Positions 29,424 through 64,000 of a stretch of 64,000 nucleotides of DNA are shown piece after piece (within the stretch, counting starts at the first letter, position 1; each line of letters starts with the position of its first letter). The DNA is from Hamadaea sp. (lineage in GTDB: Bacteria > Actinomycetota > Actinomycetes > Mycobacteriales > Micromonosporaceae). The notes beneath the pieces are model-generated. The model saw nothing but the letters and a program-made list of their open reading frames with translations, was not told the DNA's origin and ran no database searches. The translations under genes were made by a program, and so were the position numbers. The DNA is taken from assembly GCF_013362815.1 (NCBI RefSeq), contig NZ_JABFVK010000049.1:62001-126000 (forward strand). The letters are read 5' to 3'.

Positions 29424-30544
29424 CCGTGTGCGGCTACGGCGTGCTGGGCCAGCAGCAGCTGGCAGATCTCGGTGCTGCCCTCGATGATCTCCATCATCTT
29501 GGCGTCGCGGTACGCCCGCGCGACGACGTGGCCGTCCTGCGAACCGGCGGAGGCGAGGACTTGCACGGCCGCGGACGCACCCTCCGCCGCGTGACGTGCG
29601 CTGACGTGCTTGGCGAGTACTGCGGCGAGCACCATGTCGGGTGAACGCGAGTCCCAGCTGCGGCTCGCTTCGAGGCACGCGTACGTCGAGGTGCGTTCGG
29701 CGGCGTACAGCTCGGCCAGGTGACGAGCGACCAATTGATGCTCCGCCAGCGGCTGCCCGAACTGCTTCCGAGTCCCGGCATGGGCGGCGGCGGATTCCAG
29801 GCAAGCCCGGAGGATGCCGACGCAGCCCCAGGCGACCGACATCCGGCCGTACGCCAACGCGGTGGTCACCAGCATCATCACGGGCCGGGCGGTCGCACCG
29901 AGGAGGTTGGCGGCGGGCAAGCGTACGCCGTCGAGCCGGATGTTCGCGTGCCCGGCCGCACGGCAGCCCATCGGGTCCGGGACCTTCGTCACGCGTACGC
30001 CGGGAGCATCGGACGGCACAACGACAGCCGCAGCGCCGTCGGCGTACCGGGCGACGATCACCAGGAGGTCGGCGTAGGACGCCGCCGTGGTCCACACCTT
30101 CTCGCCGGAGAGGACGATGTGATCCCCGTCGTCGTGAACCGTCGTGGTCATCCCGGCCAGATCGCTGCCCGCGTCGGGCTCGCTGAAGCCGACCGCCGCC
30201 AACCGGCCGCCGGCCAGCTCACCCAGATAGCGTCGCCGCTGGCCGAGGTCGCCGAACCGCTCGATCGTCCAGGCCGCCATGCCCACGGAGGTCATCACGC
30301 TGCGCAGGGAGCTGCAGAGCGCGCCGACGGACGCGGTGAACTCGCCGGTCTGCTCGCTGCTCAAGCCGCGCCCGCCGTACTGCCGTGGCACCTGGGTGCA
30401 CAGCAGGCCACGGCCGCCGAGCGTGCGCAGCACGTCCTCCGGCAGCCGACCCGCCAGGTCCCACTCACCGGCGCGGCCGTCGACGAGGGTGCGTACGAGC
30501 TCGACGTCGTCCGCGAGGAGCTCAGATCCCGTCGGCAGGGTCAC
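29420..30544 (-). CDS. FkbI-like acyl-CoA (acyl-ACP) dehydrogenase
   Basis: 374-aa FAD-dependent dehydrogenase. It oxidises the hydroxymethylene/aldehyde carbon of the glyceryl-ACP-derived intermediate en route to hydroxymalonyl-ACP. Visible family marks: GFSEPDAGSDLAGMTT, GEKVWTTAASYAD (FAD contacts), RKQFGQPLAEHQL and the catalytic Glu region MMEIIEGSTEI. Length is normal. Overlaps the ACP gene by 23 bp upstream and FkbH by 4 bp downstream: tight translational coupling. Confidence 0.9.
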   Translation of the reverse strand: MTLPTGSELLADDVELVRTLVDGRAGEWDLAGRLPEDVLRTLGGRGLLCTQVPRQYGGRGLSSEQTGEFTASVGALCSSLRSVMTSVGMAAWTIERFGDLGQRRRYLGELAGGRLAAVGFSEPDAGSDLAGMTTTVHDDGDHIVLSGEKVWTTAASYADLLVIVARYADGAAAVVVPSDAPGVRVTKVPDPMGCRAAGHANIRLDGVRLPAANLLGATARPVMMLVTTALAYGRMSVAWGCVGILRACLESAAAHAGTRKQFGQPLAEHQLVARHLAELYAAERTSTYACLEASRSWDSRSPDMVLAAVLAKHVSARHAAEGASAAVQVLASAGSQDGHVVARAYRDAKMMEIIEGSTEICQLLLAQHAVAAHG

Positions 30545-30827
30545 CCGCGGCCTCGCTGTCGTCCTTCAGCCGCAGCACCAGCTCGGTCATCTTGCCGATC
30601 GTGCGGAAGTTGTCCATCCGCAGGTCGGGGCCGACGATGGCGATGTCGTAGCTGCCTTCGAGGAAGACGACCAGCTGCATCGCGAACATCGACGACACCA
30701 GGCCACCGGCGAACAGGTCGGTGTCGGCCGCGCACGCCGCCTTCGTCTTCGACTTCAGGAACTCCGCGATCGTCGCCGTGACGGCCTCCGTGGTCACCGC
30801 CGACGCGGTCGCGCTCTCGATGGTCAT
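30522..30827 (-). CDS. FkbJ-like acyl carrier protein for methoxymalonyl extender
   Basis: 101-aa ACP. The phosphopantetheine site is in FAGGLVSSMFAMQLVVFLE (Ser 45/46), with the G-x-VSS variant typical of FkbJ-type carriers rather than the DSL of PKS ACPs; this sequence difference is how these ACPs are told apart. It carries glyceryl through to methoxymalonyl for an AT outside this window. Overlaps FkbK by 4 bp. Confidence 0.9.
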   Translation of the reverse strand: MTIESATASAVTTEAVTATIAEFLKSKTKAACAADTDLFAGGLVSSMFAMQLVVFLEGSYDIAIVGPDLRMDNFRTIGKMTELVLRLKDDSEAAGDPADGI

Positions 30828-36625: not shown

Positions 36626-36642
36626 ACCCCTAGGAGCCCCTA
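36626..36642. promoter_or_regulatory. ACCCCTA-N3-GCCCCTA element upstream of ferredoxin/starter operon
   Basis: ACCCCTA (36626-36632) and GCCCCTA (36636-36642), 10 bp apart, overlapping the stop of the VinM-like gene and lying 65 bp upstream of the ferredoxin ATG. A related ACCCTAGGGAG palindrome is at about 36597. The same two-box layout recurs at 39561 and 44559, suggesting a cluster-specific regulator site. Confidence 0.6.
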
Positions 36643-38249: not shown

Positions 38250-38498
38250 ATGAGAGATGAGCATTTCGACCAGACGCTCCGGAGCCACTTGCCGTTCCTG
38301 GGGCCGGGCGAGGCGCTGCACGACGACGCCGACCTGCGCGACCTTGGGCTCGACTCGCTGGGCACCGTGGAGCTGCTGGCGTCGCTGGAAAACCGTTACA
38401 ACGTCCGGTTCGTCGACGACGCGCTGACGCTCGAGACGTTCGCGACGCCGGGCACTTTGTGGAACACCCTTTCGCGGATGGCCGGCACCGCGTCGTAG
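38250..38498 (+). CDS. Starter-unit acyl carrier protein (VinL-like)
   Basis: 82-aa ACP with phosphopantetheine Ser 36 in LRDLGLDSLGTVELL. It is the expected carrier of 3-methylaspartate, its decarboxylated form and then the dipeptide. Starts at ATG 38250 with GGAG 9 bp upstream. Unlike every other starter gene it lies on the plus strand, alone, facing the transacylase gene (28 bp between the two stops). Confidence 0.9.
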   Translation: MRDEHFDQTLRSHLPFLGPGEALHDDADLRDLGLDSLGTVELLASLENRYNVRFVDDALTLETFATPGTLWNTLSRMAGTAS

Positions 38499-38525: not shown

Positions 38526-39482
38526 TCAGGCCGCGTCGGCGAACGCACGCCGCCGGCGCGGCCGCAGGGCGGTCCGCGGCGAGATCGGTACAGTGTGGAC
38601 GTTCCGGGTGGTCACCCCGACCCGGCCGAATAGACTGTCCGGGCCGGACACGTAGACCGTCTGAACGCCCTGTGCCACCAGCGTGGCCACCACCGACGGC
38701 CAGCGCACCGGGCGGACGAACCCCTCCGACAGCATCGCCCGCACACCGGCGCCGTCGCGTACCAGCCGCCCGTCTTGATCCGCGACGATCGGGATGGCCG
38801 GATCGGCGAAGGTGAGCTGCGCGAGGACCTCCGTGTCCATCAGCTCCCGCAGACCGCCGAAGACGCTGCAATGCATCGGCGGGCGCATCACGTACAGCGG
38901 CAGCGCCCCTTTCGCCCGCAGGCTGGCGGTCAGCCGGTCCGAGACTCGTTCGCGTACCGAGATCATGTAAAGGTCGTCGTCGACGTGGCAGGACATCTCA
39001 TGCCACTCACCGTCCGCGTCGAGTTCCGCTTGCAGGGCCGCGAGCACGTCCGGCGGCGTCCGGGCGAAGGAATGCGTGATGACGTCCGTGTGCTCGGAGC
39101 TGAAGTACCGCTCCAGCACGCGCGCCCGCTGCACGGTCAGCCAGATCGCCTCCTCCACGGAGAGCACCCCCGTGTACGCCGCGGCGGCCTTGCCGCCGAA
39201 GCTCGGGCCGGCGCAGACGACCGGGCTGAGCCCGCTGGTCTCCTCCGCCCATCGAGCCAGCGCCAGGCAGACGATCAGGAACGCCACCTGGGCGTACTCG
39301 CTGTAGTCGCCGGTCGCCTCGTGATACCGGTCGAGCAGCGAGTCGCCCAGCACCTCGTCGGCGACGGCCGTCAGCTCGCGGGCGTACCGGTTGATGAGCA
39401 TGAACCTCGCGGTCTCGTCATAGCGCATCGGCCCCATGCCGGGAAAGACGATCGCGGTCGCCTCGGAAACGCCGGTCTCCAA
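38526..39482 (-). CDS. Trans-acting acyltransferase (VinK-like)
   Basis: About 318-aa malonyl-transferase-fold protein. The nucleophile elbow reads CAGPSFGGKAAAAYTG, GPSxG instead of GHSxG, as expected for VinK-type enzymes that move dipeptidyl groups instead of malonyl. SATAIVFPGMGPMRYDET marks the fold start and the C-terminal VYVSGPDSLFGRV the core end. Expected role: transfer the protected beta-aminoacyl group from the starter ACP to the PKS loading ACP. TTG 39482 has AAAGGGGG 6 bp upstream; the track's GTG 39518 lacks a clear site but cannot be excluded. Confidence 0.85.
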   Translation of the reverse strand: METGVSEATAIVFPGMGPMRYDETARFMLINRYARELTAVADEVLGDSLLDRYHEATGDYSEYAQVAFLIVCLALARWAEETSGLSPVVCAGPSFGGKAAAAYTGVLSVEEAIWLTVQRARVLERYFSSEHTDVITHSFARTPPDVLAALQAELDADGEWHEMSCHVDDDLYMISVRERVSDRLTASLRAKGALPLYVMRPPMHCSVFGGLRELMDTEVLAQLTFADPAIPIVADQDGRLVRDGAGVRAMLSEGFVRPVRWPSVVATLVAQGVQTVYVSGPDSLFGRVGVTTRNVHTVPISPRTALRPRRRRAFADAA

Positions 39483-39560
39483 CGCCTGCCCCCTTTCCGG
39501 CACGTGCTCTCGGGGCACGTACGGCCCCGCCAGGCTAAGCCGGGGCCGACTGCGCCTCCC

Positions 39561-39578
39561 ACCCCTAGGCCGCCCCTA
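39561..39578. promoter_or_regulatory. ACCCCTA-N4-GCCCCTA element upstream of VinK-like gene
   Basis: ACCCCTA (39561-39567) and GCCCCTA (39572-39578), 11 bp apart start to start, between the stop of the LAL regulator gene and the start of the transacylase gene. Same boxes and near-identical spacing as at 36626 and 44559. Confidence 0.6.
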
Positions 39579-39586
39579 GCTTGGCG

Positions 39587-42364
39587 TCAGCTCGCGATCA
39601 CCACCGGATGCCCGCCGCCCACCGCACCGTCGTCGAACGGATCTGCGTTCATCTCCACCGGAGACTCCTGTTGTCCTTCGAGTCCCGCCGACAGCCCGAC
39701 TCGGCCGCTCACGCCGAGCTTCTTGTAGACCCGGGTCAGGTGCTGTTCGACGGTGCTCACGGTGATGTAGAGGCGACGGCCGATCTCGCGATTGGTGTGG
39801 CCCCGTGCGGCGAGCGCGGCCACGCGCCGCTCGGCCTCGCTCAACGTCGCCAGGTCGTTGACCGCGACGAGCGGGCTCGGCGGAGTGGGCGCGACCTCGG
39901 CGATGACCGGCTGCGTCGCGCCGCGCAGACCGGCGTCATCGCCTTGGTACGCCTCCAGAGCGGCCAGTACGCGAGCGAGCTCCAGCCGGTCGCCCGCCAG
40001 GCGAAGAAGCGGCACCGCCTTGTTCAGCAGCCGTTCGCGCTGCCCCGCATCGCTGGCGGTGGCCAGCACCCGCAGCGAGATGCCCTGCGTCCGATAGTCG
40101 TTGGGCTGGACCTTGTCCAGCTGCTGCGTCACCAGATCCCGGGCGAGCTGGGTGTGCCCCAGCCGCACGTACGCCTCGGCGAGATCGCTGCGGATGGGGA
40201 TGAGCGCCGGCACGTCGATGCCACGCTCGCTCATCAGCTCGCCGCAGAACTGGAAGTCCCGGGCGGCGGCCAGCACCCGGTTGTCCGCCAGGTGGTAGTG
40301 GCCGCGAGCGTGCAGGTAACGCAGTCCGGCGATGGAGGTGAACATCGCGTCCGGCACCATTTGCGCGAACGTCTTGTCGGCGGAGTCCAGCTTGCCCTTC
40401 GCGGTGTTGGCCAACGCCTGCGTGGCCAGCGGCCAGCCGACGAGCACTCCCCAGCACCGCGCGTCGAGGAGCCCCAGCGCCGTGACCGAGTCGGCGAGCG
40501 CCTTGTCGATGTCGCCGCTGCGCAGCGCGATCTCAGCCTGGATGTTGTAGAGCAGGGCCTGCCACGTGACCGCGTTGCGCCGCGAGGCGTGTTCCATCAG
40601 CCGCTGACACCACACGGACGCCCGATCGAGCGCGCCACCGCAGACGAGCGCCAATAGCGCGCCGGTGACGACATCCACTGTGGAGTCCTCGAGGGAACAG
40701 CTGTGCAGCAGGTGCTCGGCGCTGGCGACGGCGGCCTCGCCCGGGCCGTCGGCCCACATGTAGGTGAGCGTTCGCAACGCGGTCACCCACGGGTCGTCCG
40801 ACCGCTCCTGGGTGGTCGCCGACCCGGCCGAACCGTACCCGCCGGGCTCCTCGCCGTAGATCACGTGCCGGGCGAGGTCCAGTTCGGCCAGCACGCGCTT
40901 GTCACCCGGGTGCGGCGCGCGTTCCAGCGCCGCGACCGTCTTGTCGACCAAGGCGTTGTCGCCGTGCCACAACCCGTGGCGGAGCAGGGTGACCGCCTGG
41001 CGGCCGGAGAGCTTGCCGAGTTCCGCCGCGTCCTCCAGAACGCTCAGGTACGGCGCGACGGCCAGCGGCGCGTTACGCCACATCGCGCGGGTTAGGGCTT
41101 CGGTGATGACGACGCGCTCGCGGTCGTCCGCCGTCGCCGCCAGCGCCAGCTTCAGATAGCGGATGGCCAGATCGCTCTGCTCGCCGGTCATCGTCTCCGC
41201 CGCGGCGGCCTGGAGCATCAGCACCGGCCAGCCGCCGGTCACGTGACCGGACTCGGCGATGTGCGCCGCGACGTCGACGGCGGGACAGTTCTGCTGATAG
41301 AGCAGCTCGGCCGCCCGGCTGTGCAGAGCGGAGCGCGCGCAGGCGCTGAGCGTGCCGAGCGCGACCGCACGAGCGGCCTCATGACGGAACCGGCCGTCGC
41401 AGAGCACCCCGGCGAGGGCCAGGATCTCCATGATCTCCACGACGGAGGTCTGCCCGATGTCCAGCAGCCGCGACAGCGACTGAGGCGTGGCGTGCTTGTC
41501 GAGCACCGCGATCCCCTGTGCGACCGTCAGCAGCTGCGGGAACCAGCGGTGCAGGCAGGTGGCGATCGCCTGGCTGAACGCGGCGCCCACGACCGGCCGG
41601 CCCTCGTCTTTGAGCCGGCCGTCGCGCATCGCCGTGCGGTAGTCCTCCATGAGCGCGTTGACCAGCATCGGATTGCCGCCGGTCAACCGGTGATACGCCG
41701 GTGCCAGGTGTGCCGCGGCAGTCGGCCCGGCCGCCTTGGTCAGGGCCTCCGCGATCGCCGGTCCCGACATCGGCAGCAGCCGGAGCCGATGATGCGGCTG
41801 CCGGGTCAGCTCGGCGTGGAACTGCGAGTGCTCCGGCCGTGGGCGCTCGCATTCGGTCAGCACCATCATCACCGGCGCCGCGGCGATCCGCCGTCGCATG
41901 TAGAGCAGCAATTGCAGAGACGCGCTGTCGATGTGGTGCACGTCGTCCACCACGATGACGAGCGGCCGGTCGAGCGAGAGGCCCAGCACCGCACCGCACA
42001 ACGCCTGCACGACCTGCACGACGGCGTACGCCGCCAGGAACGAGCCGTCGTCGGCGACCGAGTCCATCGCCTCGGCCCGGGTCAGGTCGGTGAGGCGCTG
42101 GAGGACCTCCTTGGGCAGCTCGGCGCTGCGCAGGAGCTGGTCGATGACGCCGAACTGGACCGGCCGCTCGGTCAGCGACCCGGCGGCGGTGAGGACGAGT
42201 GCACCCGCTGCCGCCGCCGCGCTGGAGAACTCGTGCATGAGCGTGGTCTTGCCGGTCATCAGGCCCCCGCTGACCAACACGACCTGCCCTGCTTTGTCGG
42301 TGATGCGGGTGAGGAGCCTCTCCAGCATCAGCCTGCCGTCGCGGATCCCGACGTAGTTCGTCAT
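39587..42364 (-). CDS. LAL-type LuxR-family transcriptional activator
   Basis: 925-aa pathway-specific regulator of the large ATP-binding LuxR type. Walker A is SGGLMTGKTTL (residues 32-42), Walker B LVIVVDDVHHID (about 136), a long TPR-like middle follows, and a C-terminal LuxR HTH (LSEAERRVAALAARGHTNREIGRRLYITVSTVEQHLTRVYKKLGV, about residues 835-895). Walker A reads GGLMTGKTT, a G/A-rich variant of GxxxxGKT. It sits between starter and exporter genes and is the obvious activator of the cluster. ATG 42364 has GGGAG upstream. The 754-bp leader carries no gene. Confidence 0.92.
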   Translation of the reverse strand: MTNYVGIRDGRLMLERLLTRITDKAGQVVLVSGGLMTGKTTLMHEFSSAAAAAGALVLTAAGSLTERPVQFGVIDQLLRSAELPKEVLQRLTDLTRAEAMDSVADDGSFLAAYAVVQVVQALCGAVLGLSLDRPLVIVVDDVHHIDSASLQLLLYMRRRIAAAPVMMVLTECERPRPEHSQFHAELTRQPHHRLRLLPMSGPAIAEALTKAAGPTAAAHLAPAYHRLTGGNPMLVNALMEDYRTAMRDGRLKDEGRPVVGAAFSQAIATCLHRWFPQLLTVAQGIAVLDKHATPQSLSRLLDIGQTSVVEIMEILALAGVLCDGRFRHEAARAVALGTLSACARSALHSRAAELLYQQNCPAVDVAAHIAESGHVTGGWPVLMLQAAAAETMTGEQSDLAIRYLKLALAATADDRERVVITEALTRAMWRNAPLAVAPYLSVLEDAAELGKLSGRQAVTLLRHGLWHGDNALVDKTVAALERAPHPGDKRVLAELDLARHVIYGEEPGGYGSAGSATTQERSDDPWVTALRTLTYMWADGPGEAAVASAEHLLHSCSLEDSTVDVVTGALLALVCGGALDRASVWCQRLMEHASRRNAVTWQALLYNIQAEIALRSGDIDKALADSVTALGLLDARCWGVLVGWPLATQALANTAKGKLDSADKTFAQMVPDAMFTSIAGLRYLHARGHYHLADNRVLAAARDFQFCGELMSERGIDVPALIPIRSDLAEAYVRLGHTQLARDLVTQQLDKVQPNDYRTQGISLRVLATASDAGQRERLLNKAVPLLRLAGDRLELARVLAALEAYQGDDAGLRGATQPVIAEVAPTPPSPLVAVNDLATLSEAERRVAALAARGHTNREIGRRLYITVSTVEQHLTRVYKKLGVSGRVGLSAGLEGQQESPVEMNADPFDDGAVGGGHPVVIAS

Positions 42365-43118: not shown

Positions 43119-43445
43119 TCAGGCCTGGTCGCCGGCCGGCACCTCGGCGACGGCTCGGGTGCCGACGATCGACGTGGGCTTGAACACGCCGAGCTTCGCC
43201 GTGCCGTTGAGCGAGTCGCCGTCGATCTTGACCTTGTAGTGGATCGTCATCGACATCGGCTTGCTGAGCTTGATGGTCCAGGTCAGGTCGTCGCCGTCGA
43301 CGACGCCGTCGACCAGCGGCTCGGGCCCGCTCGGACCGGTCAGGCTGCCGGTCAGGGTGGCGCCGGACGTGACGAGGATCAGTTCGCCCTGCATAGTGCC
43401 CATCGGAGTCTTCATGCTGACGTTCCAGGTGCCGTCGATGCTCAT
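43119..43445 (-). CDS. Small beta-rich protein of unknown function in the cluster
   Basis: 108-aa protein from ATG 43445 (GGAGG 6 bp upstream; the 153-aa track ORF is over-extended). Sequence is almost entirely alternating strands: GTWNVSMKTPMGTMQGELILV, ATLTGSLTGPSG, LTWTIKLSKPMSMTIHYKVKIDG. It looks like a small avidin/lipocalin-like barrel that could bind a hydrophobic ligand. No signal peptide and no Cys. I do not recognise a named family. It is the only gene between the LAL regulator and the metallophosphoesterase. Confidence 0.75.
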   Translation of the reverse strand: MSIDGTWNVSMKTPMGTMQGELILVTSGATLTGSLTGPSGPEPLVDGVVDGDDLTWTIKLSKPMSMTIHYKVKIDGDSLNGTAKLGVFKPTSIVGTRAVAEVPAGDQA

Positions 43446-43661
43446 CGGGCCTCCGTTCGTTGGCGGTGATTGACGCGGACGGCCGTCCGCGACGGCCGGC
43501 CACCGGCGGGCCCGAGTGCGGCTTGGTCTTCCGGTCCGCGCCAGGGAATCGTCCACTTCGGCCAGTCTGGTCGCGCCCACCGTGGCGGTGATCGTAAGCC
43601 TGGTAGCAGAGGCGTGACGACCCGTAATGACCTGGGAGAAGTCGATCTTAGGGGGGTGCTG

Positions 43662-44519
43662 TCAACCGGTTTTGCCCGGCGCGAACACCCGGCGAAGTGG
43701 TTGCGGATCGGCCGTCCGCCGTTTCCATTCCCGGGGATAGCCCAAGGACACCTCCTCGAAGCGTACGCCTTCGTAGGTGGTCATCCGGGGAATGTGGAGG
43801 TGCCCGTAGACCGCGACGGCGGCCCGGAATCGCGTATGCCATCCGGCCGTACGCTCGGTGCCGCACCACTGGGCGAACTCGGGGAACCACAGCGGCTCAG
43901 TCGGTCTGCGGTCGAGCGGCCAGTGCGTGACCAGCACGGTGGGAACGGCCGGATCGACGGCGTTCAGCCGCCGTTCGGTCTCGGCGACCCGGTCGGCGCA
44001 CCACGATTCGCGGTCGGGATAGGGATCGGGATGCAGCAACATCTCGTCCGCGCAGACGACACCGGCCTCGTACGCCTTCTTCAGCGACTCCTCCTTCGTC
44101 GTCGTGCCCGGCGCACGGAACGTGTAGTCGTAGAGCAGGAACAGTGGCGCGACGGTGACCGGGCCGCCGAAGCCGTCCCATTGGGCGTACTCGTCTTCGG
44201 GGGTGAGCACACCGATGTCACGGCACATCTGAACGAGGGCGCGGTATCGAAGGTCGCCGCGCAGGGTCACCGGGTCCTGGGGATGCGTCCAGAGCTCGTG
44301 GTTGCCGGGTGCCCAGATCACCTGGCGGAATCGCGTACGCAGCTGCCGCAGCGCCCACTCGACGTCTTCGAAGATCTCCCCGACGTCGCCCGCCACGATG
44401 AGCCAGTCCTCGTCGGACTCCGGTCGGATGCCCTCGACGATCCGGCGGTTCTCCGGATGCGCCACGTGCAGGTCGCTGACCGCGAACAGAGTACCCGCCA
44501 TCACCATGTTTTCGAGCAT
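43662..44519 (-). CDS. Calcineurin-type metallophosphoesterase
   Basis: 285-aa binuclear-metal phosphoesterase with all five motifs: SDLHVAHP, VAGDVGEI, APGNHELW, VTHWPLD and YGHLHIP. Soluble, no signal peptide. Shares a divergent promoter, including an ACCCCTA-N3-GCCCCTA element, with the type II thioesterase gene, so it is probably part of the biosynthetic regulon. Role unclear: dephosphorylation of a self-resistance intermediate or of a CoA/ppant-linked by-product are only guesses. Confidence 0.85.
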   Translation of the reverse strand: MLENMVMAGTLFAVSDLHVAHPENRRIVEGIRPESDEDWLIVAGDVGEIFEDVEWALRQLRTRFRQVIWAPGNHELWTHPQDPVTLRGDLRYRALVQMCRDIGVLTPEDEYAQWDGFGGPVTVAPLFLLYDYTFRAPGTTTKEESLKKAYEAGVVCADEMLLHPDPYPDRESWCADRVAETERRLNAVDPAVPTVLVTHWPLDRRPTEPLWFPEFAQWCGTERTAGWHTRFRAAVAVYGHLHIPRMTTYEGVRFEEVSLGYPREWKRRTADPQPLRRVFAPGKTG

Positions 44520-44558: not shown

Positions 44559-44575
44559 TAGGGGCGGGTAGGGGT
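44559..44575. promoter_or_regulatory. ACCCCTA-N3-GCCCCTA element in the metallophosphoesterase/thioesterase promoter
   Basis: On the complementary strand: ACCCCTA (44575-44569) and GCCCCTA (44565-44559), 10 bp apart, exactly as at 36626. It lies 40 bp from the metallophosphoesterase ATG and 32 bp from the thioesterase ATG, well placed to control both. Confidence 0.6.
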
Positions 44576-44606: not shown

Positions 44607-45371
44607 ATGATGGCGACAGTAGGTCTTTCCGCCGACGCTTGGCTGCGGCGTTTTCATCCCAAGAGCGCCGCCGGGGACGTCGTCGTGTGCTTCCCGCACG
44701 CGGGCGGCTCGGCGAGCTATTACTTTCCCTTCTCCGCCGCCATGCCGCCCGACGTCGACATGCTGACGATCCAGTATCCGGGGCGGCAGGAGCGGCGTGC
44801 CGAGCCGCCCGTCGAGTCCGTGCCGGAACTGGCCGATCAGATCGCCGAGCTGCTGGCCGGCTGGGCGGACAGCCGGCTGACCTTCTTCGGGCACAGCATG
44901 GGCGCGACCGTGGCGTTCGAGGTCGCCCGGCGACTGGAGGCCGGCGGAATCGCCGTGCACGGGCTGTTCGCGTCAGGCCGCCGAGCCCCGTCGACCCACC
45001 GCGTCGAGGGTCTGCACCTCGGCAGCGACGCCGCACTCATCGCCGAACTGCGGGATCTGAGCGGGATGCCGGTCGAGCTGCTCGCCGATCCGGAGGTCGT
45101 CCAGCTGATCCTTCCGGTGCTGCGCAACGATCTGCGGATCGCGGAGACCTATCGCTACGAGCCGGACGGCAGCGAGTTGCGCTGCCCGATCGTGGCGCTC
45201 GTCGGCGACCAGGATCCCAAGGTCGAGGTCGCCGAGGCCGCGGCCTGGCAGCGGCACACCACCGGCACGTTCGAGCTGCGTACGTTCTCCGGCGGGCACT
45301 TCTTCCTCGTCGAGCACAAGGCGGCGGTCGTCGAGGCTGTCACGAAGCACGCAGTCGCACGGAACTTCTGA
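44607..45371 (+). CDS. Type II thioesterase
   Basis: 254-aa editing thioesterase of the alpha/beta-hydrolase fold. VVCFPHAGGSASYY starts the fold, the nucleophile Ser is in FFGHSMGATVAFE, and the His is in GGHFFLVEH. Type II enzymes clear mis-primed or decarboxylated acyl groups from PKS carrier domains. It is discrete, not fused to the PKS, and so is not the macrolactam-forming thioesterase. ATG 44607, weak ribosome site. Confidence 0.92.
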   Translation: MMATVGLSADAWLRRFHPKSAAGDVVVCFPHAGGSASYYFPFSAAMPPDVDMLTIQYPGRQERRAEPPVESVPELADQIAELLAGWADSRLTFFGHSMGATVAFEVARRLEAGGIAVHGLFASGRRAPSTHRVEGLHLGSDAALIAELRDLSGMPVELLADPEVVQLILPVLRNDLRIAETYRYEPDGSELRCPIVALVGDQDPKVEVAEAAAWQRHTTGTFELRTFSGGHFFLVEHKAAVVEAVTKHAVARNF

Positions 45372-45455: not shown

Positions 45456-47042
45456 CTAAGCCGAGGGAGCCGCGGCCAGGTCCTTCTCCTCGTCGTCCTT
45501 GTTCTCCTTGGCGCCGCCCGGGGTGATGTAGCCGACCGGCATCCGGCGCAGGATCACGAAGATGAGTACGCCCCACACGAGCGATACTCCGGCGCCGGTC
45601 AAGGCGGCGAAGTTCATGCCGTGCGTGAAGGCCTCCCGGGCGGCGGTCAGCAGTGGGCCGGCCACCTCCGGGGGCAGTGCGGCGGCGACCTGGAAGGCAC
45701 CGCCGAGAGTGCTGTGCGCCGCGTCGACGGCCGCCGCCGGAGCGCCGGGAATGGCCGTGTCGAGCATCTGGTGGTGGTAGACCGCCGCACCGACGGTGCC
45801 GAGGATCGCCACACCCAATGCGGTGCCGAGCTCGTCACTGGTCTCGGCCAGGGCCGACGCCGCGCCCGCCCGTTCTGGCGGAGCCGCGGTGAGCACGAGG
45901 TCGGCGATCAACGGCGCGGTCATCATCATGCCGGCCGCCACCGCACCCGAGCCGACCAGCAGCTGCCAGAGTTCGGCGTCCGGAGCCAGCAGGTAGAGCA
46001 CCCCGAAGCCGAGGGTCATCACGACCAGGCCCGTGCCGATGATCCGGCTGGGGCGTACCTTGGCGGCCAGCCCGACCGACAGGAACATGGCGACCATGAC
46101 CGCCGGAATCGTGACGAGCGACCACAACGCCGCGGTGAACGGGCGCATCCCCATCACCAGCTGAAGGTACTGGTTGGCGTAGAGGCCGATGCCGGTGAGC
46201 CCGAAGCCGGTGATGACCTTGGTGAGGATCGACATGGTGAACGGGCTGTTCTTGAACAGCCTCATGTCGATCAGCGGGGCGGGATGTCCCAGCTGACGCC
46301 GGATGAACAGCAGCCCGAACGCCAGACCCACGACGACCGCCGCGAGCGGCACGATCTCGAAGCCCTCGACGGCCAGCTGCTTGATCCCGTAGATCACGGC
46401 CACGATGGCGAACAGCGAGATCGCCGCGCCCAGCAGGTCGAACCGGCCGTTCTCCGGGGACTTGAACTCCGGCAACAGGAACGGCGCGAGCACCAGCAGC
46501 AGCGCCATCGCCGGAAGGTTGATCATGAAGACGGAGCCCCACCAGAAATGGTCCAGCATCAGGCCGGCGATGATCGGGCCGAGCATGATGCCGCTGGTGA
46601 GGCTGCCGGTCCAGATGCCGATCGCCGACTTGCGTTCCTTCTCGTTGTGGAACATGTTGCGGATCAACGCCATGGTCGACGGCATCAACGTCGCCGCCGC
46701 GATGCCGAGCACCGCCCGGCTGGCGATCAGCAACTCGGCGCTGCCGGAGTACGCCGCGGCCACCGACACCGCGCCGAACGCGGCCGCCCCGATCAGGAGC
46801 AGCTTGCGCCGCCCGATCCGGTCCCCGAGGCTGCCCATCGTGATCAGCGCGCCGGCCAATCCGAATCCATAGGCGTCCATGATCCACAGTTGTTGGGTCG
46901 CCGTAGGCTGCAAGCCCTCACTGATGAACGGCAACGCCAGGAACAGGATGCTGACATCCATCGAGATGATCAGACAGGGCAGCACCAAGACGGCCAGCCC
47001 GATCCATTCCCGGCTCCCGGCCTTGGACTCCACGACCGTCAT
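45456..47042 (-). CDS. DHA2-type MFS exporter of the cluster
   Basis: 528-aa 14-helix drug:proton antiporter. Motif A (MGSLGDRIGRRKLLLIG), SRAVLGIAAATLMPSTMALIRNMF, and GIWTGSLTSGIMLGPIIAGL are clear. Located between the thioesterase and the PKS genes, so it most likely exports the macrolactam and gives self-protection. A Lys/Glu-rich C-terminal tail (KENKDDEEKDL) is cytosolic. It is read from a 150-bp promoter region that holds one ACCCCTA box. Confidence 0.88.
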   Translation of the reverse strand: MTVVESKAGSREWIGLAVLVLPCLIISMDVSILFLALPFISEGLQPTATQQLWIMDAYGFGLAGALITMGSLGDRIGRRKLLLIGAAAFGAVSVAAAYSGSAELLIASRAVLGIAAATLMPSTMALIRNMFHNEKERKSAIGIWTGSLTSGIMLGPIIAGLMLDHFWWGSVFMINLPAMALLLVLAPFLLPEFKSPENGRFDLLGAAISLFAIVAVIYGIKQLAVEGFEIVPLAAVVVGLAFGLLFIRRQLGHPAPLIDMRLFKNSPFTMSILTKVITGFGLTGIGLYANQYLQLVMGMRPFTAALWSLVTIPAVMVAMFLSVGLAAKVRPSRIIGTGLVVMTLGFGVLYLLAPDAELWQLLVGSGAVAAGMMMTAPLIADLVLTAAPPERAGAASALAETSDELGTALGVAILGTVGAAVYHHQMLDTAIPGAPAAAVDAAHSTLGGAFQVAAALPPEVAGPLLTAAREAFTHGMNFAALTGAGVSLVWGVLIFVILRRMPVGYITPGGAKENKDDEEKDLAAAPSA

Positions 47043-47192: not shown

Positions 47193-50100
47193 TCAGTGCA
47201 GTTGCTCCAATTCCTGATCAAGGATGTCGAACAGTTCAGCCGCTGTGGCGCGGCTCAGATCGTCGGGCACCGCGGGCGCCTCGACGCCGAACAACCGCAC
47301 GTCGAGGTACTCGGCGACGGCCGCGACGGACGGGTGGTCGAAGATCAGCGTCGCCGGAAGCCGGGTCCCCACCGCCTCCGACAACGCCGTCCGCAGTTCG
47401 ATGGCGGTCAGTGAGTCGAACCCCAGCTCCAGGAACCCGCGCGACACGTCGATCCCACTCGGGTGGTCGTAACCGAGGATGGCGGCGGCGCGACCGCGTA
47501 CCAGATCGAACAACGCGGCCCGCCGCTCCTGGACGGACATCCGGCCCAGATTGTCGAGCAGCACGGACGGCGCACCGGTTCCGCTACCCGCCCGGCGCTT
47601 GCTGCTGGTCCGGGCCAGACCGCGCAGCATCGGCGCGACGGTGGCCGCGGCCCGGAGCACCGTGAGATCCAGCTTCATCACCGCGAGGGCGGCTTCCGGC
47701 CGCGCACCAGCGACGGTGAAGGCCGCGAGACCGGCGGACGCGGGCAGCGCTCGCATGCCGTCGCGCCCCAGACGGCTGCGGTTGGTCGAGGTCAGGCCAC
47801 CGGCCAGGCCCTCGTCGCTGTCCCACAGTCCCCAGCCGAGCGACTGCCCGACGAGACCCTGCGACCGTCGATGCGCCGCGAGCGCGTCGAGGTAGCTGTT
47901 GGCGGCCGCGTAGTTCGCCTGGCCGGGGCCGCCGAGGACCCCTGAGGCTGACGAGAACAGGACGAACGCGGTCAGGTCGTGGTCCCGAGTGAGCTCGTGC
48001 AGGTACCAGGCCGCGTCGACCTTGGGCCGCAGCACCTTGTCGAACGCCTCCGGGGTCAACGAACTGAGGACGCCGTCGGCGAGCACACCGGCGGCATGCA
48101 CGATCCCGCGCAGCGGACGATCGGCCGGGATCGCGGCGATCAGGGCCGCCACGGCTTCGTGGTCGGCCACGTCGACTGCAGCGATCGTCACCTCCGCGCC
48201 CAGCTCGGCCAGCTCGTCTCGCAACTCCACTGCGCCCGGGGCGTCGAGCCCACTGCGGCTGGTGAGCAGCACGTGGCGTACGCCGTGCTCGGTGATCAGG
48301 TGCCGGGCGAAGAGCCGCCCCAGCATCCCCGTGCCGCCGGTGACCAGCACCGTCGCGTCGGAGTCGAAGACGCTCGCACCTTCCACTGAAGCCGCCGCAC
48401 CGTCCACCGAGCCGGCGCGTTCCAACCTGGCCGCGTACGCCGTCCCGCCGCGCACGGCCACCTGCGGTTCGCCGGTGGCCAACGCGACGGCCAGATCGTC
48501 GGCGGTGCCGTCGACCAGGACGAAGCGGCCGGGATTCTCCGACTGCGCGGAGCGCATCAGTCCCCAGGCTGCTGCGCCAACCAGGTCGCTCACCGGCTCA
48601 CCGGCCACCGAGACTGCGCCGTTGGTGCGTACCACCAGGATGGCGTCGGCGAAGCGCTCGTCCGCGATCCAGGCTTGCACGACCGGCAGCAACTGCTGAA
48701 TCGCCGTACGCACAGCCGAAGGATCTTGGCCAGAGGTTACCTCGATCACCACCGACTCGGGGACGGGTCCTTCGTCGGTCAGCGCCTCCCAGTCCGCCCA
48801 GCCGAGCGGCCGTCCCGTCGCCGCAGCTTCGGTCCAGGCGGTCCGGAACAGCAGTTCGGTCCCGCCCGAACTGGCGGACAGGTTGGAATCCGGTTCCCGC
48901 AACAACAGCGAGCCCACCGACAACACCGGCAAGCCCGTCGTGTCGGTGGCGTCCAGCGACACCAGGCCTTCTCCGAGCGGCCGCACCCGTACGCGCACCG
49001 CCGAAGCGCCGATCGCGGACAGCGACACGTCCGTCCAGGAGAAGGGCAGCCGGACCTTGTCGCCCAGTTCCTCGTTGCAGGCGATCGCGTGCAGCGCGCC
49101 GTCGAGGAGAGCCGGATGAAGGCCGAATCGGGTGACGTCCGTGCCTTCCGGGAGGGCGATCTCGGCGTACACGTCGTCGCCGTGCCGCCAGGCTGCGGTG
49201 AGGCCACGGAACAGCGTGCCGTACGGCAGACCGGCGTCGGCCAGGCGCTCGTAGAAGTCCGACAAGTCGATCGCACTAGCGCCCGGCGGCGGCCAGCTGA
49301 CCGCGTCGGCGGCGGTGCCGGGCGCGCTTTCGGCCACCACACCGGAGGCGTGCTGGATCCAGGGCGCCTCCAGATCAGTGGCCCGGGAGTAGATCGTCAG
49401 CGCTCGGCGACCCCGCTCGTCCGGTGCCGCGAGGACGAGTTGGAGAACGAGCGCCTCCCGCTCCGGCAGCACCAGAGGCGCATGCACCGTGAGCTCCTCG
49501 ACCAGCTGACAGCCGGCCTGTTCCGCCGCCGCCAGCGCCAGCTCGACGAAGCCGGTGCCGGGGAACATCACCCGGCCCAGCACCACGTGCCCGGCCAGCC
49601 ACGAATGCGTCGCCAGCGAGACCCGGCCGGTGAACACGACCGAGCCGGTGTCGGCCATCGGCACTGCCGCACCGAGGAAAGGATGCCCGACGGCGGCCTG
49701 CCCCAACGCCGACGGATCACCGGTGGCCCGATCGTCGGCGGCCCAGTAGCGCCGGTGCTCGAAGGCGTACGTGGGCAACGGGAGGTCGCTGTGCTCGTGC
49801 CCGGCGAACATCGTGGCCCAGTCGACCCGGAACCCCCGGGTATGCAGCTCGCCCGCCGAGACCAGCAGGCGCGCCGGCCCGCCGTCGTCGCGCCGGAGTG
49901 AGCCCGTGACGGCGACCTCGTCGGCGTGCTCGTCGAGGATCTGCTCGATGCCCGGCACCAGGACCGGATGCGGGCTGCATTCCACGAAGGCTCGGTGGCC
50001 GTCGGCGTACAGGTCGCGGACCGCCTGCTCGAACCGGACCGGCTCGCGGAGGTTCCGGAACCAGTACTCGGCGTCCAGTCCGGCGGTGTCCACCCGCCGA

Positions 50101-53100
50101 CCCTCCACTGTCGAATAGAACGCGATCTCCGACGTACGCGGAGCGACCCCCGCGAGGTCGGCGAGAATCGTCGGCCGCAGTGCCTCGACGGCCGGCGAAT
50201 GGGAGGCGTAGTCGACGGGAATGCGGCGAGCACGGACGGTCTGGCTTTCACACTCGGCGAGCAGTTCCGCCAACGCGTCGGCGTCACCGGAGACGACGGT
50301 GGTCGCCGGACCGTTCACGGCGGCGATTCCCAGGCGGCCGTCCCAGCGCCGAAGACGCTGGCCGACTCGTTCGGCCGATTCGGCCACCGAGACCATGCCG
50401 CCGGTGCCTGCGATCGTCAGCACCGCGCGACTGCGCAGAACGACCACCCGCAACGCGTCCGCCAGCGACAGACCACCAGCGACGTACGCCGCCGCGACCT
50501 CTCCCTGCGAGTGACCGACCACGACGTCGGGGGTCACACCTAGCGACCGCCAGACAGCGGCCAAACCCGCCATCATCACGAAGAGCACCGGCTGGACGAC
50601 GTCCACTCGTTCCAACGACGGCGCGCCCGGCACATCCCGCAGCACATCGGCGGCCGACCAACCCGCCAAGTCCGCCAGCACCTCGTCGCAGTCGGCCACC
50701 ACCTGCCGGAACACCGGCGAGTGGTCGAGCAACTCCGCACCCATGCCCAGCCACTGCGAACCCTGACCCGGGAACACCCAAACTAGGCCACCACCGCGGG
50801 TTGCCCGGCTCCGAGCCAGTCGGGGCGACGGGTCGCCGGAGGCCGCCGCTCGCAACGCAGTCAGCATGGATTCCCGGTCTTCGCCCACCACGACCAAGCG
50901 GTGTTCCTGAGTGGAGCGACCGGTCGCCAGCGAGGAGCCCACCTCGGCCAGCGAGAGATCCGGATGGTCGTCGACGAACGCGGCGAACCGGTCCGCGTAC
51001 GCACGCAGCGCATCGGCTGACTTCGCGGAGAGCAGGAACGGCACCGCCGCCAACGGAGGGGCCGACGCAGGCGATTCCACGGCCGGGGCCTCTTCGATGA
51101 TGAGGTGAGCGTTGGTTCCGCTGACCCCGAACGAGGACACACCCGCTCGCCGAGGACGCCCGGATGACGGCCAATCGCGGGCCTCGGTCAGCAGCTCGAC
51201 CGAACCCGACGACCAGTCCACGTGCGTCGACGGCTTGTCGACGTGCAGCGTCTTCGGCAGTACGCCGTGCCGCATCGCCATGACCATCTTGATCACGCCG
51301 CCGACCCCGGACGCCGCCTGCGCGTGCCCGATGTTCGACTTCAGCGATCCGAGCCACAGTGGACTGACCCGATCCTGCCCGTACGTCGCCAGGAGCGCCT
51401 GCGCCTCGATCGGATCGCCCAGTGTCGTCCCAGTCCCATGGGCTTCCACCGCGTCCACATCGGACGGCGTCAGCCCGGCCACCGACAACGCCTGCCGGAT
51501 CACCCGCTGCTGCGAAGGGCCACTCGGCGCGGTGAGCCCGTTCGACGCACCGTCCTGGTTCACCGCCGAACCGCGTACGACGGCGAGGATTCGATGACCG
51601 TTGCGGCGCGCGTCGGACAGCCGCTCCAGCAGCACCATTCCGACGCCCTCGGACCAACTAGTGCCGTCGGCCGAATCGGCGAAGGACCGGCACCGCCCGT
51701 CCGGCGACAACGCGCCCTGGGTCGAGAACTCCACGAACGACTCCGGGGTCGCCATGACGGTGACGCCACCGGCGAGGGCCAAGGTGCACTCCCCGGCTCG
51801 CAGTGCTTGACCGGCAAGGTGCAACGCCACCAGCGACGACGAACACGCGGTGTCGATCGTCACCGCCGGGCCTTCGAGGCCGAAGAAGTACGACACCCGG
51901 CCCGAGGCGATCGCGCCGGACGCTCCGGTCTTGCCGTAGTCGTGATACATCATCCCGACGAAGACGCCGGTGGAGCTGCCTTTGAGCGAGTTCGGGTCGA
52001 CGCCGGCCCGTTCCACCGCCTCCCAGGTCGCCTCCAGCAGCAGGCGCTGCTGCGGGTCCATGGTCAGCGCCTCGTGCGGGCCGATCCCGAAGAACGCGGC
52101 GTCGAACTCCCCCGCGCCGGTGAGGAATCCGCCTCGGTCGACGTAGCTGGTGGCCGGACGGCTGCGGTCGGGGTCGATCAGCGTGTCGAGATCCCAGCCG
52201 CGATCGTCCGGGAAACTCCCCGTCCCCTCACGACCGTCGAGCACCATCCGCCACAGATCCTCCGGGGACGACACTCCGCCCGGATAACGGCAGGACATCC
52301 CGACGATCGCGATCGGCTCGTCCGAGGTCTGCCGGACACCGGCCACGACCGATCGACTGGAGTCCACTCCGGACAGTTCGGCCGTGACGAACTCGGCGAG
52401 CTTCACCGGCGACGGGTAGTCGAAGACCAGAGTTGCCGGGAGCCGGAGGCCGGTCGCCTCACCCAGCGAATTGCGCAGCTCCACCGCCGTCAGCGAGTCG
52501 AAGCCGAATTCCGTGAAGGCCCGATCGGGGACCAGTCCGGTCGCATCGGCTCGGCCGAGGACGGCGGCGACATGCTGCAGGACGACGTCGAGCACCAGAC
52601 CGGCTCGGGCCTCCGGGGGGTGGTTCGCCAACCGGCGGGTCAGCGTACCGGCGCGGGTGCCGGAGCTGCGCCGAGCCCGGCCGCCGAGCAGTCCCCGGAA
52701 GATCGCGGGCACGTCACCGGCCGCAGCCAGCGCCCGTCGATCGACGCTGATCGGAACCAGCACCGCTTCGGCCGATCCACCGGCCGCGTCGAACAGCGCC
52801 AGCCCGTCCTGCTCCGTCAACGGCAGGACACCGCCGCGCGCCATCCGGGAGCGATCGGTCTCGGCCAGCGTCTCCGTCATGCCGCTCACCGGCACCCACG
52901 GTCCCCAGGCCAGCGACTGCGCAGCGAGGCCCGCGCTGCGCCGATGGGTCGCGAGCGCGTCGAGGAAGACGTTCGCCGCGCCGTAGTTCCCCTGCCCGGC
53001 CGCGCCGAGCGCACCAGCCGCCGACGAGAACAATACGAAGAACTTCAGGTCCACGGTCAATTCGTGCAGGTGCCAGGCCGCGTCGACCTTCGGGCGCAAG

Positions 53101-56100
53101 ACCGTGTCCAATCGCTGCGGCGTCAGCGACTCGATCACCCCGTCGTCCAACAATCCAGCGGTATGCACAACGCCGTCCACGGCAAAGTCACTCAGCAACG
53201 CAGCAACCGCAGCCCGATCAGCCACATCACACGCCACCAACGAAACCGACGCACCCGACTCCCGAAGGCTCGCCACCAACTCCGCCGCCCCCGGCGCATC
53301 CCCACCCCGACGACTCACCAACACCAGATCGCGTATGCCGTGACTCACCACAAGGTGCCGAGCCACGAGCGCACCCAACCCGCCGGTCCCACCCGTGATC
53401 AGCACGCGATTCGCGGTCGACCAGGGAGGCGTACTCGCCGGTGCGGGCGCCTTCACCAGGCGCGGCACGAAGATCCGATCCTCCCGCACGGCCAGCTCGG
53501 GTTCGTCCAGTCCAAGCAGGCCACCGACGGAGTCGGGGGTTAGCTCTCCGATCGTGTCCACCAGCACGATCCGGCCCGGGTTCTCCGCCTGCGCTGCGCG
53601 TACCAGTCCCCAGACCGAGGACTGCACGAGGTCCACCGGCTCGCCGGAGATCGACACCGCTTGGCGGGTGACGACGACCAGCCGCTCGGCGGCGCGATCC
53701 TCCGCCAGCCACTGTTGCAGCCTCAGCAGAACCGCCTTCGTCACCTCGGCGACGCGAGCCGGGATCTCGCCTTCCCCGCTCGGCACAACCAGCACGTCAT
53801 GGCTGGTGTCGGCGGCAACCGGCGAACTCGTCTGGACCCAGCTCACGCCGAACATCGAGTCGTGCGTACCGGCTGCCGTCCGCAGCTGCTCACCCGTGAC
53901 TTCCCGCGTACGCAGAGAGCCGATCGAAGCCACCGCACGGCCGGACGAGTCGCCGAGGTCGATCGAGGCCGAGGACTCGTCGACTTCACGCATCCGCACC
54001 CGTAGTTCGGTCGCACCCCCCGCGACCAGGGAGATCCCGGCCCAGGAATACGGAACGCGGGCGGGACCGGCGGTGGTACGCGGATCGTGGAGCGCCGCGT
54101 CCAGCAGGGCCGGATGCAGCGTGTAGGAACCGGCGTCGCTCCGGGCCGACTCGGGCAGTGCGACCTCGGCGTAGATGTCCCGGCCCGAGCTCCAGGCCGC
54201 GCGCAGTCCCGCGAAGGCCGGACCGTACTCGAATCCGGAGTCCGCCAGCCGCTCATAGAGATCGGTGACGTCGAGTTCGGTCGCCTCAGCCGGGGGCCAG
54301 ATCGTGAAGTCCGTCGACGGCCGGCTCGCTGCCGTCCCGAGTACGCCTTCCGCGTGCAACACCCACGAGGCGTCGGACCGGTCGGGTCGCGAGTGGACGG
54401 TGATCCGCCACCGGCCGTCGACCGCTCCGTCGACGACGACCTGAAGGTTCACTCCGCCCCGGTCGGGTAGCACCAATGGCGCTCGCAGGAGCAACTCCTC
54501 GATCGCCTGCGCGCCCACCTGCTCGGCGGCGTGCAGGGCGAGCTCGACGAACCCGGTCCCGGGGAACACCGTCTGCCCCAGTACGCGGTGCGCAGCGAGC
54601 CAAGGCAGCGCGTCCAGCGAAAGACGCCCGGTCAGCACGACCCCACCGGAATCGGGAGCGCTGACGATCGCCCCGAGCAGCGGGTGGTCGGCCGCCCGGA
54701 GTCCGGCCGCCACCAGCGAACCCTGCCCGGAGAGGGCGTCCACCCAGTAGCGCTCACGCTGGAAGGCGTACGTGGGCAGGTCGACGCGCCGCCCGCCATC
54801 GAGGCACACCGCCCAGGCCACCGGTACGCCCCGCACATGGCAGGCGGCGACCGCTGCCATGAGGGACTCGCATTCGCCGTGATCTTTGCGCATCGCCGAG
54901 ACGAACTTGGCCTTCCCCGTGAGGCAGAGCTGCCCCATGGCGGACAGCACCGCATCCGGCCCGAGTTCGAGATACGTGCCGACGCCTGCCGCTTCCAGGG
55001 TGCGTACGCCGTCGGCGAAGCGGACTGCCGACCGCACGTGATTCACCCAGTACTCGGGATCGCCGACCGGGGCGAGGTCGCCGGTCACGTTCGATACCAC
55101 CGGGATCGTCGCCTCGCCGAACGTCAGTCCACTCACGACCGCCCGAAACTCGGCCAGCATGGGGTCCATCAGCTGCGAATGGAAGGCGTGGGACACCCGG
55201 AGCCGTTTGGTCTTCACGCCCTGCTTCTCCAGCGCGGCCACCACGAGCTCCACTGCCTGATCCGCGCCGGACAACACGACCGCGGCAGGGCCGTTCACCG
55301 CTGCGATGTCGACGCCGTTCGTCAGCAGCGGGCGTACGTCGTCCTCCGCCGCAGCGACTGACACCATCACGCCGCCCGGCGGAAGCGCCTGCATCAGCCG
55401 GCCCCGGGCGGCCACCAACCGGGCGGCGTCGGGCAACGACAGCACCCCGGCGGCATGGGCGGCCGCGATCTCGCCGATCGAGTGACCGCCCACGAAGTCC
55501 GGGCGTACGCCCCACGACTCGGTCAGCCGGAACAACGCCGTCTCCAGGGCGAGCAAGGCCGGCTGCGCGTACGCGGTCTGGTTGAGCAGGTCCGCGTCGG
55601 TACCCCACATCACGCCGAGCAACGGCTGATCCAGCAGTGGATCGATCTCCGCCGCGACTGCGTCCAAAGCCTTCGCGAACACGGGGTACGCCTCGTAAAG
55701 CTCCCGTCCCATGCCCAGCCGTTGCGAGCCCTGGCCGGAGAACAGTACGGCGAAGGCGTCCTCGGTCCGCGCGATCCCGGTGACGATCCCTGAGTCGGCT
55801 CCGTCGTCGGCGAGCAGCCGAAGGCGGGCGGTCAATTCCTCGCGACTCGTCCCGAGCACGGCCGCTCGATGGGTGAGCCGAGCGCGGCCGGTGGCCAGCG
55901 AGAAACCGACGTCCCTCGGCTCGACGTCCGGCTTCGACTCCACAAGAGACACCAGGTTCGCCGCCTGCGCGCGTAGCCCGGTGGCCGACTTGGCCGACAG
56001 CACCCATGGCACCACCGGCGCGTCGCCTGTGCGTTCGTCCCGAGCGGACTCGTCGGCCGGTGCCTGCTCCACGATCACATGCGCGTTCGTGCCACTGATG

Positions 56101-63400: not shown

Positions 63401-64000
63401 TATGCACGACCCCGTCGACCGGGAACTCGACGAGCAGCTGCTCGACTGCATCCCGATCGGCGACATCGCACGTCTTCACGACGACCTCGGCACCCGCCTG
63501 CCGAAGGCTCGCCGCGAGCTCTTGGGCACCCGGAGCATCCGGGCCCCGACGGCTGACCAGCACCAGATCGCGTACGCCATGGTCGGCCACCAGATGCCGG
63601 GCGACCAGCGCGCCCAGCCCACCGGTGCCGCCGGTGATCAGGACGCGGTCGGCCGCGGACCAGGCCGGGTTCGCAGCCGGCTCTGTTCTCACCAGGCGCG
63701 GCACGAACCTCTGGTCGCCGCGGACCGCCAGTTCGGGCTCGTCGCCGGACAGGCCCTCGATCGCGGCGCCCTCCATGGCGTCGACCAGCCGAATCCGGCC
63801 TGGATTCTCGGCCTGCGCCGCCCGCACGAGGCCCCACACCGCGGACTGCGCAACGTTCACCGGTTCGCCGTTCACCGACACCGCTTGACGCGTGACGATC
63901 GTCAGCCGAGTCGCAACGTGTTCCGTGGGCTCGGGGTCTTTAGCCAGCCAGGACTGCACCCGGGCGAGCACGTCGCCCAGAACCAGCCGGACGTCCGGCT
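57402..64000 (-). CDS. Type I modular PKS, partial: KR-ACP then KS-AT-DH-KR-ACP with docking domain
   Basis: Open at the right window edge; the track's start at 63971 is internal. Reading from the edge: the KR of an unseen module ([16 protein letters not shown]-type; around 63650-63190) and its ACP ([11 protein letters not shown], about 62740). Then a full module: KS (about 62575-61320, [14 protein letters not shown]), AT (about 60990-60100; GHSIGE and HAFH: malonyl-CoA) with a 15-bp tandem repeat insertion, DH (about 59920-59100; [17 protein letters not shown]), KR (about 58600-58110; [15 protein letters not shown]), ACP (about 57670; [11 protein letters not shown]). C-terminal docking helix [14 protein letters not shown] matches the N-terminal docking helix of the next gene. 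Confidence 0.95.
60526..60585 (-). repeat. In-frame 15-bp tandem repeat inside the AT domain
   Basis: TCTGCCAACGCGCCG is repeated exactly at 60541-60555 and 60556-60570, flanked by degenerate copies (60526-60540 TCCACCAGCGCGCCG; 60571-60585 TCCGCCAGCAGCGGG). The protein reads [19 protein letters not shown], a five-residue repeat (ADGAL) inserting about 20 residues before VDIAAINGS, where the sister AT in the next gene has only LLTNGVDIAAVNG. Confidence 0.85.

Follow-up and report, generated by a model that had tools for sequence, protein, structure and literature searches.

The window, the 64,000-nucleotide stretch of a Hamadaea sp. genome analysed here, carries two minus-strand genes, encoding a 108-aa protein and a 285-aa metallophosphoesterase, which are placed between a LAL regulator gene and a type II thioesterase (TEII) gene (Table 1). 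The surrounding cluster encodes glutamate mutase E/S-like proteins, a PLP decarboxylase, AMP ligases and a VinK_C acyltransferase, together with a discrete acyl carrier protein (ACP), methoxymalonyl-ACP-like genes and a modular PKS, and it is a VinK-type β-amino-acid macrolactam cluster in which all the expected marker genes are present. Because the PKS extends beyond the window to near the end of the contig (C36:126001–128351), the cluster is incomplete in the assembly. The 108-aa ORF begins with an ATG at position 43445, preceded by a GGAGG ribosome-binding sequence, and lies 216 bp from the metallophosphoesterase gene; the latter is divergent from the TEII gene, with the two start codons 87 bp apart. 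As both ORFs have the third-position GC of actinobacterial genes and homologues in other genomes, they are genes rather than chance frames. An earlier reading of the sequence only had described a small gene and a metallophosphoesterase embedded in the cluster, in agreement with the ORFs, the Pfam Metallophos match of the 285-aa protein (E = 1.6e-14) and the neighbouring genes. It knew of no assigned role for either gene in macrolactam biosynthesis, and we likewise found none in the searchable literature.

Table 1. Genes and sequence elements of the macrolactam cluster discussed in the text (positions in the window)
Feature	Position	Strand	Basis
101-aa putative ACP of the methoxymalonyl-ACP gene set, candidate PptH substrate	30522..30827	-	position and sequence; no Pfam match
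Tandem TAGGGG-N4-TAGGGG, upstream of ferredoxin gene	36627..36642	-	
Discrete acyl carrier protein, VinL-like, candidate PptH substrate	38250..38498	+	Pfam PP-binding, E 5e-10
VinK-type acyltransferase, marker of the β-amino-acid macrolactam class	38526..39518	-	Pfam VinK_C, E 1.5e-23
Tandem TAGGGG-N5-TAGGGG, upstream of VinK homologue	39562..39578	-	
LAL regulator of the cluster, LuxR-family, AAA_16 and GerE	39587..42364	-	domain search
108-aa small beta-barrel protein, predicted calycin-like	43119..43445	-	ORF, AF2 model, Foldseek, homologues
Single TAGGGG between pptH and small-barrel gene, reversed relative to barrel gene; function doubtful	43649..43654	+	
Probable PptH-type 4'-phosphopantetheinyl hydrolase, metallophosphoesterase fold, 285 aa	43662..44519	-	6unc match, MPE motifs
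Tandem TAGGGG-N4-TAGGGG, putative operator in pptH/TEII divergent promoter, oriented to TEII	44559..44574	+	
Type II thioesterase (TEII), divergent neighbour of pptH	44607..45371	+	Pfam Thioesterase, E 1.4e-54
MFS efflux protein	45456..47042	-	homologue with 52% identity adjoins pptH in locus L099
Modular type I PKS, 3400 aa; ACP domains proposed as main PptH substrates	47193..57395	-	ORF
Second modular PKS gene, continuing past the window end	57402..63998	-	

A search of solved structures with the 285-aa protein returned one meaningful match, 6unc (334 bits, E = 6.6e-99), with residues 8–270 aligned to residues 17–279 of 6unc over 263 ungapped columns at 54.4% identity. Although the database title of 6unc is only 'Metallophos domain-containing protein', we take it to be PptH (Rv2795c) of Mycobacterium tuberculosis. 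This assignment is backed by its 313-residue chain, corresponding to a 310-aa construct plus three residues, and by the loss-of-function residue H246 of PptH (PMC8557913), which aligns to the first His of the GHLH motif, H240 in the 285-aa protein. The metal motifs are all kept in the latter (D16/H18, D45, N73/H74, H199 and H240/H242, in the strings SDLH, AGD, PGNHE, THW/NHF and GHLH). On these grounds, the 285-aa protein is very probably PptH-type, and a specific reaction can be expected of it; the sequence-only reading had the fold right and missed both this identity and the reaction that follows from it. Two other assignments were rejected: the match to the NCBIfam family acc_ester, which would leave a generic metallophosphoesterase, scored 35 bits against a curated cut-off of 148 bits, and an AcpH-type enzyme would carry an HD domain, which is absent from the protein, Pfam finding Metallophos instead.

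PptH removes 4'-phosphopantetheine from holo-carrier proteins of the FAS, PKS and NRPS types from several species, converting them to the apo form, and has been described as confined to mycobacteria (PMC8557913). According to that paper, Ppt hydrolases have no known physiological purpose, and knockouts of M. tuberculosis PptH gave no phenotype in mice (PMC8557913). The limitation to mycobacteria fails, because we detected PptH relatives in 138 of 201 genomes sampled from the window's family and, with a stricter cut-off, in 133 of 395 genomes of the class. The genome under study (a 7.45-Mb draft, 97.5% complete) itself contains two copies, the cluster copy and one on contig C77, which share 63% identity and fall in different parts of a quick tree, where support near the window copy is modest. 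In the same tree, the PKS-associated copies are spread over several separate lineages.

We compared 20-kb stretches around 100 PptH relatives of the window's family with 20 control stretches from the same genomes. A PPTase gene was adjacent to 39 of the 100 relatives and in none of the controls (Fisher's exact test, P = 1.6e-4, computed with 40 adjacent cases; an evidently antisense match in locus L142 was then left out), usually directly downstream on the same strand with a gap of 0–30 bp. The PPTase assignment was checked in two examples (L075 and L160), which matched Pfam 4PPT_N and ACPS. Modular KS/PKS genes lay within 10 kb of 18 relatives, compared with 0/20 controls (P = 0.04), so that 82 had no modular PKS inside this distance. 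In seven loci (L092, L093, L096, L101, L102, L143 and L159), pptH stands beside or between giant PKS genes, and in L139 one operon beside a PKS comprises the genes for TEII, PptH (with a 4-bp overlap) and PPTase. A divergent TEII/pptH pair is also present in the window's own genus (L107), near genes for a LAL regulator, a protein of the arylamine-acetyltransferase fold and shikimate dehydrogenase, a gene set suggestive of an ansamycin cluster. Another copy (L169, genome G062) lies near 3-dehydroquinate synthase, dehydroquinase II and shikimate dehydrogenase genes and a PKS, in what looks like an AHBA/ansamycin cluster; PptH recruitment would thus not be confined to macrolactams. The window copy resembles M. 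tuberculosis PptH in its MPE motifs, its catalytic His and the coupling of its relatives to PPTases, but differs in being inside a PKS cluster, divergent from a TEII gene, and in having no adjacent PPTase, as is also the case for 10 other PKS-associated copies. No PPTase was detected in the window, and a PPTase remnant was rejected, the best tblastn match reaching only E = 0.096. In the draft genome as a whole, we found no PPTase of the 4PPT_N type, the typical partner of PptH, but only AcpS and one Sfp-like enzyme; the genome nevertheless has two pptH genes.

With a threshold of E < 1e-60, VinK homologues were identified at 20 loci in 19 genomes. At 8 of these loci, the distance from VinK to a PptH gene was 65 kb or less, compared with an expectation of 0.38 (binomial test, P = 1.9e-9, or 3.9e-8 without the window), although the independent cases are fewer than 8 because related species were counted separately; for example, the arrangement is the same in genomes G057, G091 and G111. 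The PKS of G048 and G137 runs between or next to the PptH and VinK genes, G137 being left out of the 8 with a distance of 102 kb. The two genes are on separate contigs in G015.

The sequence-only reading had also described a divergent promoter with a repeated element between the metallophosphoesterase and TEII genes. A long repeat was not supported: CCATAGGGGCGGGTAGGGG is unique in the window, and a repeat search gave weak GC-rich matches only. The true repeated element is the hexamer TAGGGG, which forms a tandem at 44559–44574 in this promoter. It occurs 15 times in the window, a total not above that in shuffled sequences; the 12 copies from 26.9 to 47.2 kb (26920–47155) are nevertheless all intergenic, with two touching a stop codon and none inside a gene, and only one other hexamer is more enriched than TAGGGG between the genes of the cluster. 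The exact tandem with a 4- or 5-nt spacer occurs four times in the 7.45-Mb genome, three of them in the cluster, where the boxes are spaced 10–11 bp. The sole exact tandem elsewhere (C57:5637–5652, that is, L235:1501–1516) lies just past a cytochrome P450-like gene, and the regulon may thus include another gene set there. Because the boxes mostly share the orientation of the gene that they precede, the 44559–44574 tandem points to TEII, and its control of pptH is therefore uncertain. Among the PptH relatives, 11/21 PKS- or TEII-associated copies have TAGGGG in the 200 bp upstream, compared with 7/79 others (Fisher's exact test, P = 3.6e-5), although several of the 11 belong to one clade, from which the enrichment partly arises. 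The tandem is also present in the LAL-bearing PKS loci L160, L161 and L168, and is possibly a conserved operator to which LAL regulators would bind.

The homology, the catalytic residues, the gene neighbourhoods and the boxes together lead us to propose, with a probability of about 65%, that a PptH-type hydrolase has been recruited to a VinK-type macrolactam PKS cluster, possibly under LAL control, where it would reset or switch off carrier domains and so complement TEII. The binuclear metal centre would cut the phosphodiester linking 4'-phosphopantetheine to the ACP serine, and the release of phosphopantetheine would convert the holo-ACP domains of the macrolactam PKS and the discrete ACPs to apo-ACPs, which a PPTase would re-arm. 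This re-arming would fall to the Sfp-like PPTase, since the window encodes no PPTase and the genome only AcpS besides it. The same reaction is expected for AcpH, the E. coli ACP hydrolase (PMC8557913), but AcpH is an HD-family phosphodiesterase whose sequence family and fold are unrelated to those of PptH. In PKS clusters, type II thioesterases act on the same carrier arms and here are encoded next to pptH, but they cleave the acyl thioester, whereas a PptH-type enzyme would cleave the phosphodiester of the arm itself. TEII and PptH might therefore form a carrier-protein maintenance pair, in which TEII would clear wrong acyl groups from the arm, and PptH would strip arms beyond rescue by TEII or turn the assembly line off.

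We also considered whether the enzyme could be a general hydrolase for housekeeping or CoA economy, a hitch-hiker in the cluster with every carrier protein of the cell as a substrate and no special part in making the macrolactam. M. tuberculosis PptH has a wide range of substrates (PMC8557913), the majority of PptH relatives are outside PKS clusters, and the copies closest to the window PptH are stand-alone pptH-PPTase operons. A second copy exists on another contig, which fits a housekeeping family; however, that copy could equally cover the general needs of the cell. The repeated occurrence of PptH near VinK (8/20, P about 2e-9), its position next to or amid PKS genes of other genomes and the boxes upstream likewise argue against a hitch-hiker, and we regard this explanation as unlikely. 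The sequence-only reading had named synteny outside any biosynthetic cluster, together with independence from the LAL regulator, as evidence against a cluster role. Both gene families indeed have many members outside PKS clusters, but both also recur in related clusters, and the TAGGGG boxes, together with the repeated presence in VinK clusters, speak for the present copies as part of the cluster.

Members of the metallophosphoesterase superfamily catalyse diverse reactions, so that the PptH fold could have been kept for another phosphodiester or phosphoester, for example in a phosphorylated biosynthetic or self-resistance intermediate, but the 54% gap-free identity to PptH and the coupling of the PptH family to PPTases across the window's family make this improbable. 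The inactivity of M. tuberculosis PptH on the monoester pNPP (PMC8557913) points in the same direction.

The 108-aa protein matched no Pfam or NCBIfam family, and a profile of its family found no match among PDB sequences; two of 20 relatives matched Pfam Calycin_like weakly (best E = 4e-4), whereas the protein itself did not. An AlphaFold2 model of the protein computed with 11 relatives has nine strands (pLDDT 87.7, pTM 0.77) and, in a Foldseek search, was closest to Cap15 (TM-score 0.62–0.69), followed by FABP/CRBP structures (about 0.5–0.6). The likeness to the Cap15 β-barrel receptor is in the predicted barrel, the identity being only 17–18%. Calycins have an N-terminal GxW and a conserved Arg as hallmarks. 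With calycins such as FABP/CRBP and lipocalins, the protein shares the predicted up-and-down fold, a G-x-W at the N-terminus and, in the last strand, a conserved Arg, W7 and R97 being invariant or nearly so among its relatives; it differs in having no significant sequence family match and in its length of only 108 aa. The protein is thus predicted to be a calycin-like up-and-down antiparallel β-barrel, and the modelling and fold search are in line with the ligand-binding-type barrel that the sequence-only reading had suspected.

Relatives of the barrel occur in 52 of the 201 genomes of the window's family and, more broadly, in Actinobacteria, Acidimicrobiia and alpha- and gamma-proteobacteria, often outside biosynthetic clusters; in marine Acidimicrobiales, for example, they adjoin argS-lysA-like genes. 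Two genomes of the window's family encode barrel relatives identical to those of Catenuloplanes japonicus and Virgisporangium aliadipatigenens, by which this family is very probably Micromonosporaceae. Across the 100 PptH neighbourhoods, none of the other PptH genes had a small barrel nearby. In 5 of the 14 genomes in which KS genes were mapped (G136, G137, G176, G174 and G001), a relative is inside a modular PKS or no more than 15 kb from one (binomial test, P about 1e-4 to 2e-5 for an assumed chance of 0.025–0.04); those of G136 and G137 are inside VinK clusters, and that of G176 is 1.4 kb from the PKS. Relatives also stand beside crotonyl-CoA carboxylase/reductase genes in three loci (L048, L059 and L067), and in L068 the relative overlaps a PKS gene by 4 bp. 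Because PKS and crotonyl-CoA carboxylase/reductase neighbours recur amid varied contexts, the barrel is a recurrent PKS-cluster accessory rather than a cluster-only gene. In the VinK-type PKS cluster of G136 (L048:2–3294, contig C14), the mycofactocin genes mftB and mftC (radical SAM maturase) are directly ahead of the barrel relative and the crotonyl-CoA carboxylase/reductase gene. In another locus (L050:1447–2559), a relative is fused N-terminally to an HD-domain protein of the cyanamide hydratase family.

Our best guess is that the barrel may be an accessory binder of an acyl intermediate, a product or a carrier protein. The sequence-only reading had suggested that it might bind the hydrophobic polyene as a protection or delivery protein. 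We treat this idea, with the MFS pump as the recipient of the polyene, as a rival reading only; the family is broad and frequently found outside biosynthetic clusters. The calycin-like fold, with FABP and retinol-binding proteins among the fold matches, and the relatives that lie in the macrolactam clusters of G136 and G137 or touch the PKS gene in L068 are consistent with a polyene ligand; however, the TM-scores to FABP/CRBP are only 0.5–0.6, and other relatives are found beside crotonyl-CoA carboxylase/reductase or far from clusters, in organisms that need not make a polyene. Polyene binding is therefore a distinctly doubtful alternative to the accessory binder.

Genes that are described in similar terms have been reported from other polyketide clusters: abmL of the abyssomicin cluster (PMC5819245), I-NTF T/ORF29 of an ECO-02301-type polyene cluster (PMC8312574) and nypZ of the nystatin P1 cluster (PMC2942817). 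In the passages that describe them, each is a 'metallophosphoesterase' with no function given and a PPTase gene next to it or near it. They resemble the window PptH in their polyketide-cluster setting and PPTase neighbour, and the sizes, where given, are 281 and 303 aa; the likeness is one of size and description, and those passages do not name PptH. We found no paper linking PptH to biosynthetic clusters in the searchable literature, which did not extend to subscription papers, so that priority is uncertain.

More broadly, it is conceivable that many actinobacterial PKS clusters carry a dedicated recycling module, consisting of TEII and PptH and often a PPTase under the cluster's own regulator, by which assembly lines would be stripped and re-armed as a form of quality control or a post-translational off-switch; the barrel would then be a further accessory of the same lines. 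We put this forward tentatively. That PptH has been recruited repeatedly to PKS clusters, where TEII and PPTase accompany it, suggests what the enzyme is for, namely the resetting or silencing of carrier domains, and provides a likely function for the gene that has been left as a 'metallophosphoesterase' in described clusters. It also suggests PptH as a handle for raising polyketide yield.
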